Positions 9,486 through 16,662 of a stretch of 64,000 nt of DNA are shown in pieces. The translations under genes were made by a program, and so were the position numbers. Source of the stretch: Saprospiraceae bacterium (GTDB lineage Bacteria > Bacteroidota > Bacteroidia > Chitinophagales > Saprospiraceae); contig JABDMH010000014.1 in the NCBI GenBank assembly GCA_013001595.1, positions 1 through 64,000 on the forward strand. Reading direction: 5' to 3'. Position 1 is the stretch's first letter. Each line of letters starts with the position of its first letter. The notes under the pieces were generated by a model. That model was not told the origin of the DNA. It did no database searches and saw nothing but the letters and a program-made list of their open reading frames with translations.

Positions 9486-9631
9486 ACTAAGACAAACGCC
9501 GAAGCTAGCAAAATGTCACCTTATGCATCATCTTATTTTTAAATGCCGAAAAAAGGTCTATCTACACGGATAGGTAGTGATCTCTATGAAGAGAAACCAT
9601 CGCAAAGCTTGTGAACAGCTAAAGGCTTTGT

Positions 9632-9678
9632 CAAAAAAACAAAAGGGAAAAAGCAGCTAGGTTTGCTGCTCTTTCCCT
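9632..9678 (-). terminator. Rho-independent terminator, minus strand, downstream of a dead gene
   Basis: A 14-bp stem (9644-9657 with 9665-9678; 13 pairs plus one G-U as minus-strand RNA) with a 7-base loop is followed on the minus strand by TTTGTTTTTTTGAC. No intact minus-strand gene ends nearby. The closest is the T9SS sorting-domain remnant ending at 9777, so this is most simply the surviving terminator of that lost gene. Confidence 0.7.
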
Positions 9679-9776
9679 GTAACACACTCAAATCCGTAAG
9701 GAAATGCTCTTTAGGTATGATTATAATAATTCAAAGTCCATGCCAATATGTGCTTAGATTATTATATATCATTCCG

Positions 9777-9990
9777 CTATCGTTTTAATATCCGAGTCAT
9801 CTTTCCCGGGTGCAAGACGATATAGGTGCCCCCAGGAAGGTTCTGAACATCGAGCCGGCCTTGCTCAATATCGGCAGATATTCCTGCATCAATCTCTACT
9901 GTATCTCAAGTGGCCGTGTACAGTGCATTAGGAGACACATTACTGCGTGATGGTCCTACCTGGTTAGGTTGTGGCAAAGAGATCACTATC
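9777..9990 (-). pseudogene. Remnant of a T9SS C-terminal sorting domain
   Basis: The minus-strand translation ends EIDAGISADIEQGRLDV then QNLPGGTYIVLHP and GKMTRILKR-stop (stop at 9777-9779). LPxGTYIV followed by a short Lys/Arg-rich tail is the hallmark of a type A sorting domain. The frame is interrupted by TGA at 9906-9908, a CGA-to-TGA change at face value, just after VSPNALYTAT, itself like the VxPNP start of these domains. Upstream of about 9990 nothing of the parent protein is readable. Only the tail of a formerly large exported protein survives, with its terminator 100 bases downstream. Confidence 0.6.
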
Positions 9991-10180
9991 TAACAGCAGT
10001 GAGCCCATCATCCAAAAATATGATGATAATTTAACATCTATTCACTTTGATCGTTTGCAGAATAGCCATGGCGAAAAGAACATCTCGCCTAGAACATAAA
10101 TAGGTATGATATAAATGTACAAACATTTTTAAAGATTTGCTAATAGACTGACTAAATAAGGTATATCCCAATATGTTGTC

Positions 10181-10453
10181 ATGGGTAAATGCTTAATACT
10201 CAGATTGATCCTCCTTCTATCTGGAATCTTAGATGCTTAAGAAGTGCGACTCTTGGAACCTGTATTAAGCCTTTGGCAGACTAAATGCTACCTTGAAGAA
10301 GGTCAGACGACCGAATAAAGGTTTCAATACGACACCGAAATCACTGGACTTAGTCATTGTAAAAGAATCACTTAGCAACGCAGATACTTAACGACTGGTC
10401 AAGATAGCACCTCATTAAACGATATCTTTTATAACGTCAAAATAGGGCTTTGA
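10181..10453 (+). pseudogene. Small exported protein interrupted by three in-frame stops
   Basis: An ATG at 10181 begins a good signal peptide (MGKCLILRLILLLSGILDA). The same frame then carries TAA at 10238-10240, TAA at 10316-10318 and TAG at 10373-10375 before TGA at 10451-10453, 90 codons in all. The stretches between (EVRLLEPVLSLWQTKCYLEE, RFQYDTEITGLSHCKRIT) read as ordinary protein and no frameshift is needed. Each internal stop could come from a Gln codon by one C-to-T change. The first falls exactly where many Bacteroidota signal peptides end in Ala-Gln. No family is recognised. It may be simple decay. Confidence 0.4.
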
Positions 10454-11069
10454 TTATAAGAAAAATCTTATTCGAGCTTTGGTCTTTAACTACGATGATG
10501 ATTGCTGGTGTATGGCTATGTCAGGCAATCTTCAATGATCAACTGTTCAGTGCCAAATGGAAAGTCATCATTTGGGCTATTTCAATAAGTTTTATGCTTG
10601 AGTATACTTTACCATATATGACCAAAACATTTTATTCAGATAGCAGGGTCGAGAACAAGAGAATTCTCAATGCCGACTGGTGCAGGAGAGCAAGATCAAG
10701 CCCGAAGCCATGTCAAAATACCTATACGGGCTCTTTGAAAAAATGGGTGCTCCGATAGACCAGATTCCGAAAGAGATCGAGGGAGCCAATCTAGACGTTA
10801 GTAAGACGTTGATATACGATTATCAATTTGAACTTTCTGCGCCCAACAAAATATCATATGTAAATGACTTTGAAGCCGAATTTGCAAATCGAACGAAAAA
10901 GAATACCAAACAGAAAGTCATCAGAAGGATTTCACAGTCGGCGCAGGCAAGTCGATAAACGGCAAACTCAAGAATAATACAAGTCTACCGTATTCTAGGA
11001 GATAATTGGATCTGGTATCCGACAAACTAGGTGATATCCATCGTGTAAATGGTGATTTTTGATGAGTGA
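10450..11069 (+). pseudogene. Broken gene: membrane N-terminus and frameshifted C-terminus
   Basis: From about 10450 frame 1 encodes a two-helix membrane segment (LWSLTTMMIAGVWLCQAIF, VIIWAISISFMLEYTLPY). Around 10680 the protein-like signal moves to frame 3 (KIKPEAMSKYLYGLFEKMG, then IDQIPKEIEGANLDVSK), which stops at TAA 10956-10958. The same frame stays protein-like past it (VYRILGDNWIWYPTN), through TAG 11028-11030 and TAA 11046-11048, to TGA 11067-11069. I read this as one or two decayed genes. There is no good ATG start and no recognised domain. As in the neighbouring broken genes, internal stops in the coding frame are TAA or TAG only. Confidence 0.4.
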
Positions 11070-11252
11070 ATGGCAATAACCCCTTGCTAAACTTGCTTTA
11101 TTAGCATCGACAAAATATATTTAGGTATTCGATTTTCGAAGATCCTTTCCATAGCATTATCAATAAACTATTTAACACATGAGATGCCTACCATCTCCAG
11201 GCATATTTATGCAAACCCTTAAACAATCTTAAAAATTCAAAATCTAACCATC

Positions 11253-11639
11253 ATGAAAAATCTAACCATACTCAGTCTTATCGTCCTAATATTCACGTTT
11301 GCATCATGCAACAAAGTTGAAGCTGTGGATCCACTGGCAGAATACTATGGCGCCTAAATGGCCAGTGAGACGCTAAGCGAGGACACTTAGAGCGTAACAT
11401 TCTCTGCCGGAGAAAATCCAGGAGAGATTTTTGTTTAGGATACACTTAGTGATGTTGATGAAATAGATCTAGTGGCCAAGATCGAAGGCTCCAATTTTAT
11501 GTTTGATGAGCAGTCAATTCTGGAGTCTTCGTTTGCCTCGGGCACAGGCACCATATTAGATGGCAGGGTTAGTTGCAGAATGACCATAGCCATTGGTCTG
11601 ATTAAAATCTATTATACCATCAATTACGAAAAACTGTAG
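11253..11639 (+). pseudogene. Lipoprotein gene with three in-frame nonsense codons
   Basis: ATG 11253 starts a clear lipoprotein signal (LIVLIFTFASCNK, lipidated Cys at 20). The frame continues without any indel to TAG 11637-11639 (128 codons), ending TINYEKL, but is cut by TAA 11355-11357, TAG 11388-11390 and TAG 11436-11438. Reading each as Gln gives a smooth sequence (YYGA-Q-MASETLSEDT-Q-SVTFSAGENPGEIFV-Q-DTLSDVD). The sequence has the feel of a small beta-barrel/lipocalin-like Bacteroidota lipoprotein (ASGTGTILDGRVSC), but the family is not certain. C-to-T decay is the simplest explanation. An intact reading frame with three stops suggests recent inactivation or readthrough. Confidence 0.65.
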
Positions 11640-11684
11640 ATATTGACATTAAGATAAGAATGGGATGATATGTACCATACTTAA

Positions 11685-12426
11685 CTGAAGTGTATAAACG
11701 AATTGCTGCCGGCTGGCCTGGGAATCATCTATCACAACATCTCTAATTCGTGCACGTCTTTTGTCGTCAAGCAAAACCTGGATGATGATGTCTTTAGTAC
11801 CTGTCCATCCTTTCCAAACACCAATACAAAAAGCAGTACGGGCACATGGAATGATCATGATCACTGGAGTATGGATCAAATTCCGACTTTGTGCCATGAT
11901 GTCGTAATTCCTGCTGACATGACCGATATCTCTGGCATGCAGATGAGGCAAGCTCGTATGATCGATGTACAACCCAATGCATTCTTTGAAGTACAAGGAA
12001 CTCTTGAAATTCAAGGCAACTGAAAAAAACTAGGGCAATCTATCGTTATTTCTGACCTCGGATCGACTCCTTCTTGCCAAATCCTTGATCGACTATCCCA
12101 ATTCTTTGAAATCACAGAAACTGGTCAGGTGTCATGCTAATTCAAATTTCAGTTCACCATCCTCGATACGGCTTTGAATTCAATAAATATGAATGTCCGA
12201 ACGGCACAAGCATCCGTATGGAAATAAAATGTGATGATTGCAAATACTTCAATTGGATCTATGATTCTCTCACAGCCCTTCTGGCAATGCCCCACCCACA
12301 GGCTCAAAATACAGTGGCGAGACACCAAAATTCGAAAAGAGATCAAATATCCCCTATTATATTTACTCGGCGGAGGATAAAGTCCTATCTTTTGCAGCGA
12401 AAGAAGGCATTGCGTTTCCCTGTTGA
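11685..12426 (+). pseudogene. Fragments of a large extracellular repeat protein
   Basis: Frame 3 from about 11685 encodes a segment ending at TGA 12021-12023 that contains STGTWNDHDHWSMDQIPTLC followed by HDVVIPADMTDISGMQ and FFEVQGTLEIQGN. This is the TW(x)nxxNWSxxxxPtxxDDVVIP..ltIxpGaxLxI pattern of beta-solenoid surface modules common in T9SS-exported proteins. The signal resumes in frame 2 (GFEFNKYECPNGTSIRMEIK, then CDDCKYFNWIYDS, about 12165-12270) and shifts to frame 1 (NAPPTGSKYSGETPKFEKRS to KEGIAFPC, stop at 12424-12426). Two or more frameshifts plus a stop show an eroded gene lacking both ends. Confidence 0.55.
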
Positions 12427-12779
12427 TGGGTCCGCAATTGCATTACTGTAAGCAGAATGTCAACTAGAACAAATTGTCCTTGCACTTATCGTCAGGCTGC
12501 GTCCATTTTGAGGGCCGGACTCGATACCTGTTAGCATCATCTTTTGCCCAATGAGCAAGGATTTCTTTTGAGTTCGGCAAAATCATAACGTGATTGAGTC
12601 CGATGAATGCTAAAGATTTGATCTTACTCGGGGATATTTATCAGTATTTGAAAAACACGGTGAACCGACACATATTATTAGTTGGAAGCATAATCAGAAA
12701 TGATTCTTTTTTCTCCAACATTATAGTCTGGAACATAGACGAAAGCTTTCATCCTCTCTGTGTAAAATCATAATGATCA
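12427..12779. other. Intergenic region upstream of the corrinoid locus
   Basis: No gene, hairpin-plus-T-tract or promoter box stands out. I looked for the conserved B12-box of a cobalamin riboswitch, which would be expected ahead of corrinoid genes, and did not find one. The broken surface protein ends at its left edge. Confidence 0.4.
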
Positions 12780-13478
12780 ATGACAGAGAATTTGAGATCG
12801 AAATACCCAAAGATGAATGATATACTTGACAAACTAACCCTTTGTATTGAGCGAGGAAAAGTGGATACAAATGCCACATTCCCATCAGACATGATAGGTG
12901 ATCCGGGAGCCGATGAATTAACCAGGCAAGCGATTACCCAAAATATTCCTGCAGAAGAAATCCTAAATAAGGCATTGTTCAAAGCCATGAAAAGGGTTGG
13001 AATCAGGTTCAGAGACAATGAAATATTTGTCCCAGAAGTACTGATGGCTGCAAAAGCAATGAGTACTGCAATGAAACATTTAATTCCATTTTTTGACCAA
13101 GGTCTAATCAGTAAAAAAGGGACCTTTATAATCGGTACGGCTGCAGGCGATATGCATGATATTGGCAAAAGTCTCGTGGCCATGATTGTAGAAGGTGGCG
13201 GTTGGAATACTATAGATCTAGGGATAAATGTGTCAACGCAGAAGTTCTTAGCTGCCATAGAGGAAAACCCCGGCTGTTCCGTGGGAATTTCGGCCTTATT
13301 GACAACAACTATGGTAAACATGGAAAATACAGTTAAAGAAATAAAGGAAAACTACCCCGGCATCAATGTTTTGGTTGGTGGTGCTCCAGTGACTCAGTCG
13401 TTTTGTGATGACATCGGTGCGGATTTCTATTCTCCCGAGCCACATGGCGCTTTAGATTTTCTAAATGAGCAAACTTAA
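12780..13478 (+). CDS. Corrinoid (B12-binding) methyl-carrier protein
   Basis: 232 residues, the MtaC/MtbC/MttC type. An N-terminal helical cap (about 15-90) precedes a Rossmann-like B12 domain with the base-off, His-on signature DMHDIG at Asp124-x-His126-x-x-Gly129, followed by GISALLTTT (SxL motif) and LVGGAPV (GG motif). It would carry a methyl group on cobalt between the UroD-type methyltransferase and the homocysteine methyltransferase encoded downstream. The family usually begins at MNDILDKL, so ATG 12813 is a likelier start than ATG 12780. It is the first gene of the locus, 12 bases before the next gene. A 190-codon antisense ORF is a shadow. Confidence 0.93.
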   Translation: MTENLRSKYPKMNDILDKLTLCIERGKVDTNATFPSDMIGDPGADELTRQAITQNIPAEEILNKALFKAMKRVGIRFRDNEIFVPEVLMAAKAMSTAMKHLIPFFDQGLISKKGTFIIGTAAGDMHDIGKSLVAMIVEGGGWNTIDLGINVSTQKFLAAIEENPGCSVGISALLTTTMVNMENTVKEIKENYPGINVLVGGAPVTQSFCDDIGADFYSPEPHGALDFLNEQT

Positions 13479-13490
13479 AATTACCTTGCC

Positions 13491-14381
13491 ATGAATAACA
13501 TTATGGATTGCATTAGGGAAGGAAGTGTGCTGCTCTCAGATGGTGCGTGGGGTACCATGCTGTATGAAAAAGGACTGAAAAGTACAGAGTGCCCGGAACT
13601 TTGGAATATTTCCAATCCAGACAAGGTTTTCCAAATTGCCAAAAGCTACGTTGATGCAGGAGCTAACATTATTGAAACCAACAGTTTTGGTGGATCAAGA
13701 ATGAAACTGGATATGTATGAGCTCGGCGACAGAGCCAAAGAAATCAATTATGCTGCGGCAAGGATTTCCAGGGAGGCTGCCGGAGATGATGTCTATGTCT
13801 TTGGATCGCTAGGTCCAACTGGCAAAATCCTAATGATGGGTGAAGTTTCAGAGGAAGAAGTTTATCAGGTGTTTTGTGAACAAGCAGTTGCTCTTGAAGA
13901 GGGTGGATCTGACGCTTTAATAGTAGAAACGATGATGGCACTGGATGAAGCTACTATTGCTATAACAGCTGCTAAAGAAAATACCTCGCTGCCGGTAATC
14001 TGCACCTTTACTTTTGAAAAAACAATGAATAATGATTATAGAAGTATGATGGGAGTTTCACCAACAGATATGGTCTCCGCACTTATAGATAGTGGCGCTA
14101 CAATTATTGGAGCCAATTGTGGGAATGGCATTGATCGGATGGTAGAAATTGCCAAAGAAATGAGAAAGGCAAATCCCTCGGCCTATCTTATGATCCAGGC
14201 CAATGCTGGAATCCCAGAGATCATAAATGGAAAGAGTTATTTTCGAGAAGGCCCAGTGGAAATGGGGGCTCAACTTCACCATCTTATTGATCAAAATGTC
14301 AATATCATTGGCGGTTGTTGTGGAACAACTCCTGATCATATTGCTCGGTTTTCGCAAATAATCACGCATGCAAATTCTTGA
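13491..14381 (+). CDS. Homocysteine S-methyltransferase (MetH N-terminal-like, stand-alone)
   Basis: 296 residues, equal to the homocysteine-binding barrel of cobalamin-dependent methionine synthase. It starts with LLSDGAWGTMLYEKGL and has the zinc-thiolate ligands Cys210 (GANCGNG) and Cys276-Cys277 (GGCCGTT), which activate homocysteine. There is no folate-binding, B12 or activation module in the chain. Those functions are on separate neighbouring genes, and the folate-binding one is absent. Expected reaction: methyl-Co(III) corrinoid protein plus homocysteine gives Co(I) plus methionine. Some close relatives use other methyl donors such as S-methylmethionine or betaine, but the adjacent corrinoid gene argues for the cobalt route. 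It ends with TGA and appears intact. Confidence 0.9.
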   Translation: MNNIMDCIREGSVLLSDGAWGTMLYEKGLKSTECPELWNISNPDKVFQIAKSYVDAGANIIETNSFGGSRMKLDMYELGDRAKEINYAAARISREAAGDDVYVFGSLGPTGKILMMGEVSEEEVYQVFCEQAVALEEGGSDALIVETMMALDEATIAITAAKENTSLPVICTFTFEKTMNNDYRSMMGVSPTDMVSALIDSGATIIGANCGNGIDRMVEIAKEMRKANPSAYLMIQANAGIPEIINGKSYFREGPVEMGAQLHHLIDQNVNIIGGCCGTTPDHIARFSQIITHANS

Positions 14382-14474
14382 AAATAAGGGAATCAGATGA
14401 GTCATTTGAATTCTTCAAGTTAATACAATTTGATCATCTGCGCGCTATTGAGTTCGGACCTATAAATACTTGTT

Positions 14475-15194
14475 ATGAATTGCGAAGTACAAGAATACAA
14501 TTTGAAATTTGACCAGGTCGAAGTAAAAGTGCAGAACATCATTAATGCCATGGGATATCCTAAGGGTGCCGCACCACCTGAGATTGTTGAGATGGTAAAA
14601 AAACAATTAGATGAGTCTAGACATCATATCAAATTAAAATGTGGTTTTGTTGTACTGCCTCCAAATGGTATTTCTGTTAAAGATGGATATATCCACTTGA
14701 AGGACTTAACCTTCCATACGGAAAGAATAGTGAGCGTACCGCTAAGAAAAATGGAAGAGGCAGCACTTTTTGTTGTTACAATCGGCCATCAATTCGATGC
14801 GTGGTCACGCAATACATTTAAATCTGAAGATGCACTTGCAGGCTATATTATAGACCTTGTTGGTTCGGAAATTGCTGAACGCACAACTGATTGGCTGGAG
14901 AACAAGATAGTTGCTCTAGCCAAAGAAGAGGGGAAAAAATGCAGTAATCGTTACAGTCCCGGTTATTGCGGATGGAGCGTCGCTGAACAACATAAGTTAT
15001 TTAGTTTCTTCCCCGAAAATTTTTGTGGAGTTTCACTAAGTGAGTCTGCTTTGATGAAACCTCATAAATCAGTCAGTGGAATTATCGGATTAGGTAAAGA
15101 GATGAAAAGGTTGGAATATCCATGTAGCGCATGCAGAGTATCCCATTGCTATAAGAATCAGGAACTCCCATTAAGCAATACATCAGGTAGCTAG
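14475..15194 (+). CDS. MetH-activation-domain-like corrinoid reactivation protein
   Basis: 239 residues. The C-terminal half matches the SAM-binding activation domain of methionine synthase: RYSPGYCGWSVAEQHKLFSFF, then CGVSLSESALMKPHKSVSGIIG. In MetH this domain binds S-adenosylmethionine and rescues the inactive Co(II) state by reductive methylation. Here it is free-standing and has an extra C-terminal Cys cluster (CSACRVSHCYKN: three Cys and a His), which might bind metal or an iron-sulfur centre and so pass the electron. The N-terminus (YNLKFDQVEVKVQNIINAMGYP) is the small helical part seen in similar stand-alone proteins beside corrinoid methyltransferases. It lies 93 bases after the homocysteine methyltransferase. 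Confidence 0.85.
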   Translation: MNCEVQEYNLKFDQVEVKVQNIINAMGYPKGAAPPEIVEMVKKQLDESRHHIKLKCGFVVLPPNGISVKDGYIHLKDLTFHTERIVSVPLRKMEEAALFVVTIGHQFDAWSRNTFKSEDALAGYIIDLVGSEIAERTTDWLENKIVALAKEEGKKCSNRYSPGYCGWSVAEQHKLFSFFPENFCGVSLSESALMKPHKSVSGIIGLGKEMKRLEYPCSACRVSHCYKNQELPLSNTSGS

Positions 15195-15489
15195 AAGGTA
15201 AATATTTTGAAGGAATAGACACATGGCGAATTGGAAAGGAAAGGAGGAACTGACGAATGGCAGATCGGATGGATCGATGTTTCAATCTATTTCCCGGATT
15301 TACTTCTTCCCAGTAGGCATGGGCATTTCTCCAATATTCCAATTGGTCTAGACATTCCATAATTGAATACTTTTAATGTACCCCTTTGACCGAACTTGAA
15401 TGAATATTTTCACGGTAATTAACATACTGATTTCCAACAATCTAGAAATAATTCCACCCACCCGATCTTGAACTTAAATAGATTGAAAT
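15195..15489. other. Gap inside the corrinoid locus
   Basis: 295 bases without a supported ORF or hairpin. It is wide enough to hold a separate promoter for the UroD-type methyltransferase gene, but no TAnnTTTG box with a spaced TTTG was seen. Confidence 0.3.
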
Positions 15490-16662
15490 ATGAATCCCAG
15501 AGAGCGAATTATGAAAGCTATGAATTTGGAGCATCCTGATAGAGTTCCGGTGATGTGTCAATTTAGTATTGGCTTTATGAATCAACAGTTAAAGGGGACG
15601 GGGATAACTCCAATGGAGCTTTGGCTGGATGCAGATAAATATGCCGAAGGACTAATTTTCCTTAGAGATATATTTGATTTCGATGGAATATTGGTTTCAA
15701 TTCATGGTCACGCGAAAGATTGGCGTCAAAAAATCAAAAAGGTGGAAGTAGTTGATACATTTGAAAAGGCTACTTTTGAAGGGCATACGGAGTTGTATTT
15801 AGATGACGATCTACCGATTGGTAATTTTTTCGAACCAAGACAAAGAAATCTCGATAGTATTAATCCGACAAGTATCCCCGATAAATTAGATTACATTGCA
15901 GCTTCTAAAGATTGCTATTTTTTCATAGATGAGGAAGACCCCTACAGGGTTTTTAAAATTCTTGATGACAACCTAAAACGACAATATTCCATTCACGGAG
16001 AGGTAACATCACCCTTCGACTACCTGCTCGATTTGATTGGTTATCAAAACGCTCTGATGGCTTTGGTCCTAGAGCCTGCAAAAGTTAAACTCATACTTGA
16101 TAAATTTACCGTTGGGGTTATCAATATGGCAGTTGGATTAGCAGAACGCGTAGAAATTGATGCTATTAAAATTTCTTCTCCTTTTACCGGAATGGGTTTT
16201 ATTTCACCAGACCATTATCGTCAATTTGAACTACCCTACATCAGTAGAGTTGTAGACGCAGTTAAAAATTGCGGCAAAGCTGTATATATTCACACCTGTG
16301 GACATATTAATGACAGGCTTGAAATCATGAAGGAATCCGGTGTGTCGGGTTTAGAATGTCTTGATCCGCCACCTATTGGAAACACCGAACTTGAAGATGC
16401 CTTTAATAGAGTTGGTGATTCTATGTTTATAAAGGGTAATATTGACTCTGTGAGTACACTGTTAAATGGGAATGAAGAATCCATAACTGCTGATGTTGCG
16501 AAAAGGATACAGGTTGGGATGCAGAATAAAGGCTTTATTTTGAGTACTGCCTGTTCTATTGCTCCCAAAGTTCCCAGGGAAAATATTGAACTTCTTGCAA
16601 AACTCGCTAGTGAAATAGGAAGTTACAGTGACCCTAAATACCTCGGCGCACATCATCTTTAA
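15490..16662 (+). CDS. UroD-superfamily corrinoid methyltransferase (MtaA/CmuA/MtbA-like)
   Basis: 390 residues, a uroporphyrinogen-decarboxylase-fold TIM barrel starting MNPRERIMKAMNLEHPDRVPV. It has the zinc site of methyltransferase members, not true HemE: His268-x-Cys270 in YIHTCGH and a third ligand at Cys355 in STACSIAPKVP. HemE would instead carry the porphyrin-binding N-terminal RQAGR motif, which is missing. Members move methyl groups between small molecules (methanol, methylamines, chloromethane, methoxyaromatics) or thiols and a corrinoid protein. With a dedicated corrinoid protein and a homocysteine acceptor nearby, this one probably takes the methyl from the unknown growth or scavenging substrate. 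The reading frame appears intact. Confidence 0.9.
   Translation: MNPRERIMKAMNLEHPDRVPVMCQFSIGFMNQQLKGTGITPMELWLDADKYAEGLIFLRDIFDFDGILVSIHGHAKDWRQKIKKVEVVDTFEKATFEGHTELYLDDDLPIGNFFEPRQRNLDSINPTSIPDKLDYIAASKDCYFFIDEEDPYRVFKILDDNLKRQYSIHGEVTSPFDYLLDLIGYQNALMALVLEPAKVKLILDKFTVGVINMAVGLAERVEIDAIKISSPFTGMGFISPDHYRQFELPYISRVVDAVKNCGKAVYIHTCGHINDRLEIMKESGVSGLECLDPPPIGNTELEDAFNRVGDSMFIKGNIDSVSTLLNGNEESITADVAKRIQVGMQNKGFILSTACSIAPKVPRENIELLAKLASEIGSYSDPKYLGAHHL

Follow-up and report, generated by a model that had tools for sequence, protein, structure and literature searches.

A Saprospiraceae gene quartet that may relay methyl groups to methionine through a corrinoid protein and a UroD-type donor enzyme

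Four genes that lie together on one strand of a 64,000-nucleotide stretch of Saprospiraceae bacterium DNA (contig JABDMH010000014.1 of assembly GCA_013001595.1; hereafter the window) encode a corrinoid protein (CP), a homocysteine methyltransferase (HMT), a protein resembling the reactivation domain of MetH (ACT), and a methyltransferase of the UroD superfamily (URO). We consider it probable that this quartet makes methionine by way of a corrinoid relay that needs no folate and is fed by the UroD-type enzyme. URO would demethylate a small methylated compound and load the methyl group on the Co(I) of CP; methyl-CP would then dock to HMT, where, judged by the chemistry of the family, the methyl group would pass to zinc-bound homocysteine and yield methionine, and ACT would restore CP with oxidised cobalt to service. 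The donor slot would be filled by a swappable UroD paralogue, i.e., URO in the window, a sister protein termed UA in xylan-related clusters, and others elsewhere. We infer each of these catalytic steps; the identities and motifs of the genes, the conservation of their set, donor exchange, and co-occurrence reported below are observations.

A sequence-only reading of this DNA had proposed such a relay. Its description of the four genes, with their coordinates, common strand, and named residues, was borne out by the open reading frames (ORFs), Pfam, and conserved motifs. The proposal as a whole stands insofar as the set recurs, URO is a UroD-type methyltransferase other than HemE, and the quartet is not simply a split MetH; on the other side, the suggested methyl donor is only a candidate and the restriction of known systems to other acceptors had been overstated. 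If the relay operates as proposed, it would constitute a UroD-based, folate-free entrance to methionine, through which many Bacteroidota would tap the methyl groups of environmental compounds directly, and the sister xylan clusters would be concrete candidates for the demethylation of 4-O-methylglucuronate, which hardwood xylan carries as a side group.

Domain assignment of the four proteins

The window lies in contig C27 of a 6.2-Mb genome (G000); other genomes are referred to by G-numbers, and loci or flank stretches by L-numbers. According to the ORF coordinates, the intergenic gaps amount to 12 bp (CP-HMT), 93 bp (HMT-ACT), and 295 bp (ACT-URO).

Table 1. Coordinates of the quartet and of further features; positions without a prefix refer to the window.
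Feature	Position	Strand	Description
CP, free-standing corrinoid (B12) methyl carrier	12780-13478	+	232 aa; DxHxxG = D124/H126/G129
HMT, stand-alone zinc homocysteine S-methyltransferase, MetH N-terminal type	13491-14381	+	296 aa; C210/C276/C277
ACT, stand-alone short MetH-reactivation-domain-like protein	14475-15194	+	239 aa; C217/C220/C225
URO, UroD-superfamily methyltransferase, putative methyl-donor enzyme	15490-16662	+	390 aa; Zn motif H268-x-C270...C355
Hydrolase (downstream of quartet)	16999		
Oxidoreductase (downstream of quartet)	18357		
Pectate-lyase-like (downstream of quartet)	20002	-	
Sulfatase (downstream of quartet)	23590		
MetE-domain protein in G000	C117:32119-33108		one of two in all; the pair has frames of 346 and 365 aa
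MetE-domain protein in G000	C153:185622-186575		second of the pair
Xylan cluster	L179:106-12955	one-strand run	GH115, GH43, CP, HMT, UA, UB (GH10, ACT in some)
Xylan cluster	L180:2470-13431	one-strand run	GH115, GH43, CP, HMT, UA, UB (GH10, ACT in some)
Xylan cluster	L182:2357-11449	one-strand run	GH115, GH43, CP, HMT, UA, UB (GH10, ACT in some)
Mixed cluster (G346)	L220:9222-14451		UA-like UroD, CP, HMT, MetF with DUF5981, pterin-binding protein in a row

CP matches the B12-binding families PF02310 (E 8e-23) and PF02607 (B12-binding_2, E 3e-17), and the three residues of its DxHxxG motif are kept in 11/11 aligned CPs. The closest NCBIfam models, MtgC, pyl_corrinoid, and MtbC, all score below their cut-offs. 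With a family profile, the best solved relative is 1y80 (E 1e-67), compared to approximately 1e-40 for MetH B12 domains, and CP resembles methyltransferase corrinoid proteins more than the latter.

HMT matches PF02574 (S-methyl_trans, E 6e-69) and no other family. Its best solved relative with a family profile is the homocysteine part of 1q7m (E 2e-71), the 5-methyltetrahydrofolate S-homocysteine methyltransferase of T. maritima, and its three cysteines are kept in 10/10 aligned HMTs. In a phylogenetic tree, HMT falls into a clade of its own (support 99/98), apart from the N-terminus of the genome's own MetH, HMT-MTHFR fusions, and MmuM-like proteins, although the unity of this clade is partly a selection artefact, since the rows were picked by similarity to the window HMT.

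The match of ACT to PF02965 (Met_synt_B12, E 3e-9) covers only the C-terminal half of the model. Its AlphaFold2 structure (pLDDT 88) has TM0269 (1j6r) as best fold match (E 2e-11, TM 0.74/0.88). The C-terminal cysteines (C-x2-C-x4-C) are invariant in 14/14 aligned sequences, in a part that was predicted with lower confidence, and an iron-sulfur centre bound by them is no more than a conjecture.

URO matches PF01208 (URO-D, E 1e-39). The sequence-only reading had taken it for a UroD-type methyltransferase and not for HemE, which model scores and tree corroborate: URO scores 38 bits with the hemE model, whose cut-off is 303, the HemE that G000 has besides falls outside the URO clade, and this clade is supported by 100/99 in a UroD tree whose long branches make its deep branching order unsafe. 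HemE was accordingly rejected as an identity. The top-scoring NCBIfam model is the MtaA/CmuA model TIGR01463, with 113 bits still below its cut-off of 235, and the methylcobalamin:coenzyme M methyltransferase MtaA (4ay7/4ay8) is the best solved relative in both sequence and fold, ranking ahead of true UroD enzymes in the search with the predicted structure (pLDDT 92). The His-x-Cys...Cys motif of URO aligns with the HIC...C of MtaA and is invariant in 21/21 rows, comprising the window and 20 of 23 real relatives (L038, L046, and L049 were left out).

As the sequence-only reading had stated, the locus is devoid of a pterin-binding domain, which holds for the four proteins according to Pfam; the genome beyond the quartet was not searched for a stand-alone pterin module. 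Likewise, Pfam revealed no RACo-type activase among the four proteins, a genome-wide search for which was not made.

Co-occurrence of the genes and exchange of the donor enzyme

In a random draw of 395 genomes of the phylum, URO (cut-off E 1e-40) was found in 16 genomes, own included, one of them (G471) with a weak match of 32-40% identity, and the 15 others are spread over five families. HMT (cut-off E 1e-45) was found in 46 genomes, 33 of which have it as a stand-alone protein (frame ≤421 aa) and 13 in frames of 502-649 aa only; the one long frame that was checked, in G126, is an HMT-MTHFR fusion. Stand-alone HMT accompanies URO in 14/16 genomes, compared to 19/379 genomes without URO. With the own genome dropped, this becomes 13/15 vs 19/379 (table 13, 2, 19, 360), corresponding to a Fisher value of 5e-14, uncorrected for relatedness. 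The URO genomes lacking a stand-alone HMT are G126 and G428.

Gene order was counted by tblastn; longest-ORF calling had missed genes in L121, L194, L196, and L221. The sequence-only reading had made its case depend on the four genes co-occurring elsewhere, and they do: one-strand clusters of URO, CP, and HMT are present in 7 of the 15 other URO flanks (L110, L112, L113, L118-L121), and are joined by ACT in L113, which has the window's four genes in a different order, and in L121, which includes RACo as well. Flanks of HMT were covered for 29 of the 33 genomes with a stand-alone HMT, the window included (G291, G361, G212, and G254 were left out). CP lies within 5 kb of HMT on the same strand in 23/29 flanks, and CP, HMT, and ACT form one run in 13/29, again counting the window. 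These 13 runs contain URO in 3 cases (window, L113, and L121), are flanked by non-URO UroD paralogues in 8 (L179, L181, L182, L183, L185, L188, L189, and L190), and have no UroD labelled in 2 (L191 and L193). In L113, the modules themselves have been exchanged, with URO grouping with L110/L112 in the trees and HMT with the UA-linked HMTs of L179/L180/L185. Since the core recurs with other UroD paralogues, CP-HMT(-ACT) looks like an acceptor core that is combined with exchangeable UroD donor enzymes in many Bacteroidota.

The single-contig chromosome of G104 encodes URO, one CP (56%), and one HMT (57%), the latter being its only PF02574 match, together with six UroD-family matches. A chromosome-wide domain search yielded no PF01717 or PF02219 match and no match to the MetH, MetE, or MetF families. 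Because there is no PF02219 match, G104 is without an obvious source of methyl-folate, and it provides the best hint that HMT could serve methionine synthesis without folate, with methionine uptake as the alternative.

A scan of genome contigs for URO returned 24 loci, of which L050 (21% identity) was dropped and 23 were kept at 39-64% identity, all from metagenome-assembled genomes (MAGs) labelled Bacteroidota, Bacteroidetes, Bacteroides, Bacteroidales, Rikenellaceae, Cyclobacteriaceae, Neomarinimicrobiota, or Kiritimatiellia. CP, a CobW GTPase, ACT, and URO occur together in 8/23 loci (L033, L035, L036, L039, L041, L043, L044, and L047), 5 of which have a second UroD (UroD2), and L037, L038, and L040 carry a partial set near a contig end. 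CobW may act there as a metal chaperone for zinc enzymes. RACo corrinoid activases adjoin URO in L027, L031, and L121. For five of the closest URO relatives, no CP was found beside URO, and their genomes (G100-G104) hold an HMT 54-59% identical to that of the window (L088, L089, L082, L083, and L090), linked to ACT in L082, L083, and L089. In the Bacteroidota MAG stretch L088:434-9838, the HMT orthologue lies approximately 3 kb upstream of the genes for a CO dehydrogenase and for an acetyl-CoA synthase fused to the delta subunit, an arrangement that may connect HMT with the Wood-Ljungdahl corrinoid. Selenocysteine in URO was considered and dropped, as the stops flagged in six orthologues (L103-L108) turned out ordinary where checked: the forward-strand rows L105, L107, and partial L108 end in a normal terminal stop, and URO of L103 and L104 is an open ORF in the larger stretches L118 and L119.

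Possible substrates of URO

A His-x-Cys...Cys zinc site has been linked to S- or Se-methyl rather than O-methyl substrates, and a carboxylate ligand in place of Cys to oxygen substrates (Kountz and Balskus, PMC10418091). The His-Cys-Cys site of URO therefore favours an S- or Se-methyl compound as its predicted methyl donor. O-methyl sugars or pectin-derived methyl groups, which the sequence-only reading had suggested from a setting among sulfatase, esterase, and glycosidase genes and which rest on the downstream hydrolase, pectate-lyase-like, and sulfatase genes, are unproven for URO, whose zinc site shows the S/Se pattern; O-methyl sugars are likely only for UA, which shares the core beside GH115.

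Recurrent neighbours of URO, identified by Pfam on one or two members each and otherwise by clustering, include an SSF symporter in 4 loci (L034, L110, L112, and L114), an amidase-like gene that precedes URO in 3 (L032, L034, and L046), sulfatase-like genes in the window, L030, L031, and L042, the last also with GH28, and MsrB (SelR) directly before URO in L120. As these neighbours differ by group, no single substrate of URO follows from its context.

UA and the xylan clusters

In G306, G170, and G451, genes are arranged in the order GH115-GH43-CP-HMT-(ACT)-UA; GH10 precedes this run in G306 and G451, and UB, a further UroD protein, follows it in all three (identities by Pfam for G306, and by 44-59% identity to its proteins for G170 and G451). 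GH115 is described as an alpha-glucuronidase family whose targets in xylan are (4-O-methyl)glucuronate side groups. UA was found in 10/395 genomes, 7 times at 59-100% and 3 times at 36% identity, and all 10 genomes encode a stand-alone HMT. The 10 UA flanks contain GH115 in 4 cases, GH10 in 5, and GH43 in 4 (counting G451 with its second stretch, L222), so that 6/10 have at least one of these families and 4 (L185, L217, L219, and L221) have none. By tblastn, none of the three exceeded the score limits in 76 other loci, some of them overlapping (87 minus the 10 UA loci and L222); a weaker GH43 match in L202 (27%, 110 bits) stays below these limits.

The 8 UA rows inspected (all but L217 and L221) read H-N-D instead of HxC, and no Cys in them aligns with the third zinc ligand; in 6 of the 8, a Cys stands two residues before that position, which leaves some doubt about the site. 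UB retains H-x-C...C. Because the carboxylate of H-x-D favours oxygen substrates and GH115 lies in the neighbourhood, UA is predicted to demethylate 4-O-methylglucuronate from xylan. As for precedents, the accessible portions of the open-licence PMC literature yielded no corrinoid demethylation of methyl-glucuronate. We tentatively extend this to a plug-in methyl-harvesting core of Bacteroidota with swapped UroD donors, in which UA would be a corrinoid O-demethylase of 4-O-methylglucuronate that feeds methionine without folate, and URO the S-/Se-methyl version. UA is not URO, and it illustrates a possible use of the shared core, not the substrate of URO. The cluster of G346 (L220) combines, by its predicted gene products, acceptors of the homocysteine and the folate type.

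Alternative explanations

Several observations weigh against a dedicated relay. No CP or HMT was found near URO in 7 of the 15 other URO flanks (L114-L117 and L122-L124, with L115 and L122 being short contigs), and in L111, CP lies beside URO with HMT 7 kb off on the opposite strand. Similarly, 6/29 HMT flanks (L111, L184, L186, L187, L192, and L195, the last cut by a contig end) have no same-strand CP within 5 kb, and URO, CP, and HMT are scattered in G104. No stand-alone HMT was found for the Bacteroidales group with CP-[UroD2]-CobW-ACT-URO: a PF02574 search in the genomes of the 11 whole or partial CobW-type loci revealed a long MetH-like frame in 8 and no match in G113, G117, and G120. Methyl-CP of this group must therefore end elsewhere. 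Finally, G000 itself encodes, outside the locus, a full-length 1240-aa MetH, one MetF, a third PF02574 protein labelled MmuM-like, and two MetE-domain proteins, and the relay is therefore not the only possible methionine route in this genome. The two MetE-domain proteins are short enough for core methionine synthases.

The 1240-aa MetH bears on a simple split MetH whose folate module is encoded far away, an explanation that the sequence-only reading had tied to a MetH elsewhere lacking exactly these domains. As this MetH is complete, the quartet is not simply a split MetH, and that explanation is not our first choice, although no search aimed at a stand-alone folate module was made. An additional methionine synthase, split as in the Phaeobacter/Mtg case, in which a pterin-binding protein encoded elsewhere would load CP/HMT from methyl-tetrahydrofolate and URO would be an optional side entrance, is unlikely but has precedent, as MtgC, MtgD, and MtgE have been proposed to work as a split synthase in Ruegeria (PMC12478193). 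It would fit MetF and the pterin-binding protein directly after UA-CP-HMT in L220, which also count against the relay, the CP of L200, which is followed by a 279-aa protein that matches a region of MetH other than the HMT and B12 parts, and the MetF of G000. It is opposed by the complete MetH that G000 already has, by the lack of a PF02219 (MetF) match in G104, and by the remaining listed flanks, in which, beyond L200 and L220, genes other than CP, HMT, and ACT have no match to the own MetH at E 1e-5 except for MmuM-like ones. Less likely still, URO could be an MtaA-like enzyme on the acceptor side, which would methylate a thiol or selenol from methyl-CP or equilibrate methyl groups among thiols and selenols for salvage, leaving HMT as one of two outlets. 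The His-Cys-Cys site, MtaA as best relative, and the proposal that type 1 mlp clusters act on methyl-S/Se compounds (PMC10418091) agree with this, and URO could be the outlet that the Bacteroidales CobW group needs. However, since URO is the only UroD match in G000 besides HemE (at C36, 403 bits to PF01208), another, unseen donor enzyme would be required there. Lastly, the quartet could be a passenger, inert or decaying, that was gained by transfer. Its GC content below that of the downstream flank, the gene-poor stretch upstream, and the lack of any URO match stronger than E 2.5e-7 among 99 relatives might suggest this, but it appears very improbable, given that all four frames are intact and the conserved motif residues are kept.

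Comparison with known systems

The closest precedent for the proposed relay is MtgBCDE (2025) of Ruegeria/Phaeobacter, whose donor protein MtgB is a member of the MttB family. There, a shared corrinoid protein couples methionine synthesis and the demethylation of an external methyl compound, and, as in the quartet, it is accompanied by a stand-alone homocysteine-binding subunit (PMC12478193). In contrast to the quartet, which has no pterin gene, the pterin-binding subunit MtgD is essential there, and MtgB is not described as UroD-type. The statement of the sequence-only reading that known systems end only in coenzyme M or tetrahydrofolate thus went too far, as MtgBCDE couples a corrinoid demethylase to homocysteine. 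The open-licence PMC literature, including PMC11306105, yielded no UroD-CP-homocysteine relay in its accessible portions.

Type 1 MGCs (PMC10418091) share with the quartet an MtaA-like UroD with a His-Cys-Cys zinc site and a corrinoid protein, and have no tetrahydrofolate transferase in the cluster; unlike in the quartet, no homocysteine methyltransferase is described for them in the accessible text. They comprise at least Mlp2 and Mlp3 UroD proteins, CP, and a Ram/RACE activase, and the quartet was not assigned to them, with one non-HemE UroD in G000 and no RACo-type activase among its four genes. Cobalamin-dependent MetH has homologous homocysteine, B12, and reactivation parts, whereas the quartet consists of separate small proteins without a pterin domain, has a CP nearer methyltransferase corrinoid proteins, and coexists with a normal MetH. 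The acetogen O-demethylases MtvABC/OdmB are UroD-type, and their acceptor, as for CdmBCA, is tetrahydrofolate. Like these, CdmBCA shares a UroD-type methyltransferase I and a corrinoid protein with the quartet, and CdmB works without zinc (PMC13222342); the URO profile matches CdmB weakly (E 7e-7). For several of the MesA-D families, methyl transfer from a methyl-corrinoid protein to homocysteine without folate has been predicted (PMC7857596). HMT was rejected as a Mes core methionine synthase, since it matches PF02574 (MetH/BHMT family) only. The Mes proteins are MetE-like (PF01717).

Genomic setting of the quartet

Apart from two tRNAs in L188, the window and 16 related loci gave no Rfam match at the gathering score and, hence, no riboswitch. 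Between 12400 and 17100, promoter-like sites are near chance (17 vs 13.9 ± 3.5) and no terminator-like site was found. The sequence-only reading had described the locus as richer in A/T than its neighbours and as following a gene graveyard, fitting arrival by transfer. In 1-kb windows, its GC content is 0.37-0.43 compared to 0.42-0.48 downstream (17 to 26 kb), which agrees with that description for the downstream side; equally low GC values mark the gene-poor DNA at 9.5-12.5 kb. Directly upstream of the quartet, the 3.3 kb from 9486 to 12779 hold short ORFs only, none wholly inside exceeding 121 aa, as fits a graveyard. Among 99 relatives, from genus to order, the 15 URO matches are weak (best E 2.5e-7, 29% identity), none being at orthologue level, and together with the GC difference, this makes an arrival of the quartet by transfer plausible. 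The downstream hydrolase, pectate-lyase-like, and sulfatase genes begin 0.3-7 kb from the quartet (Table 1).

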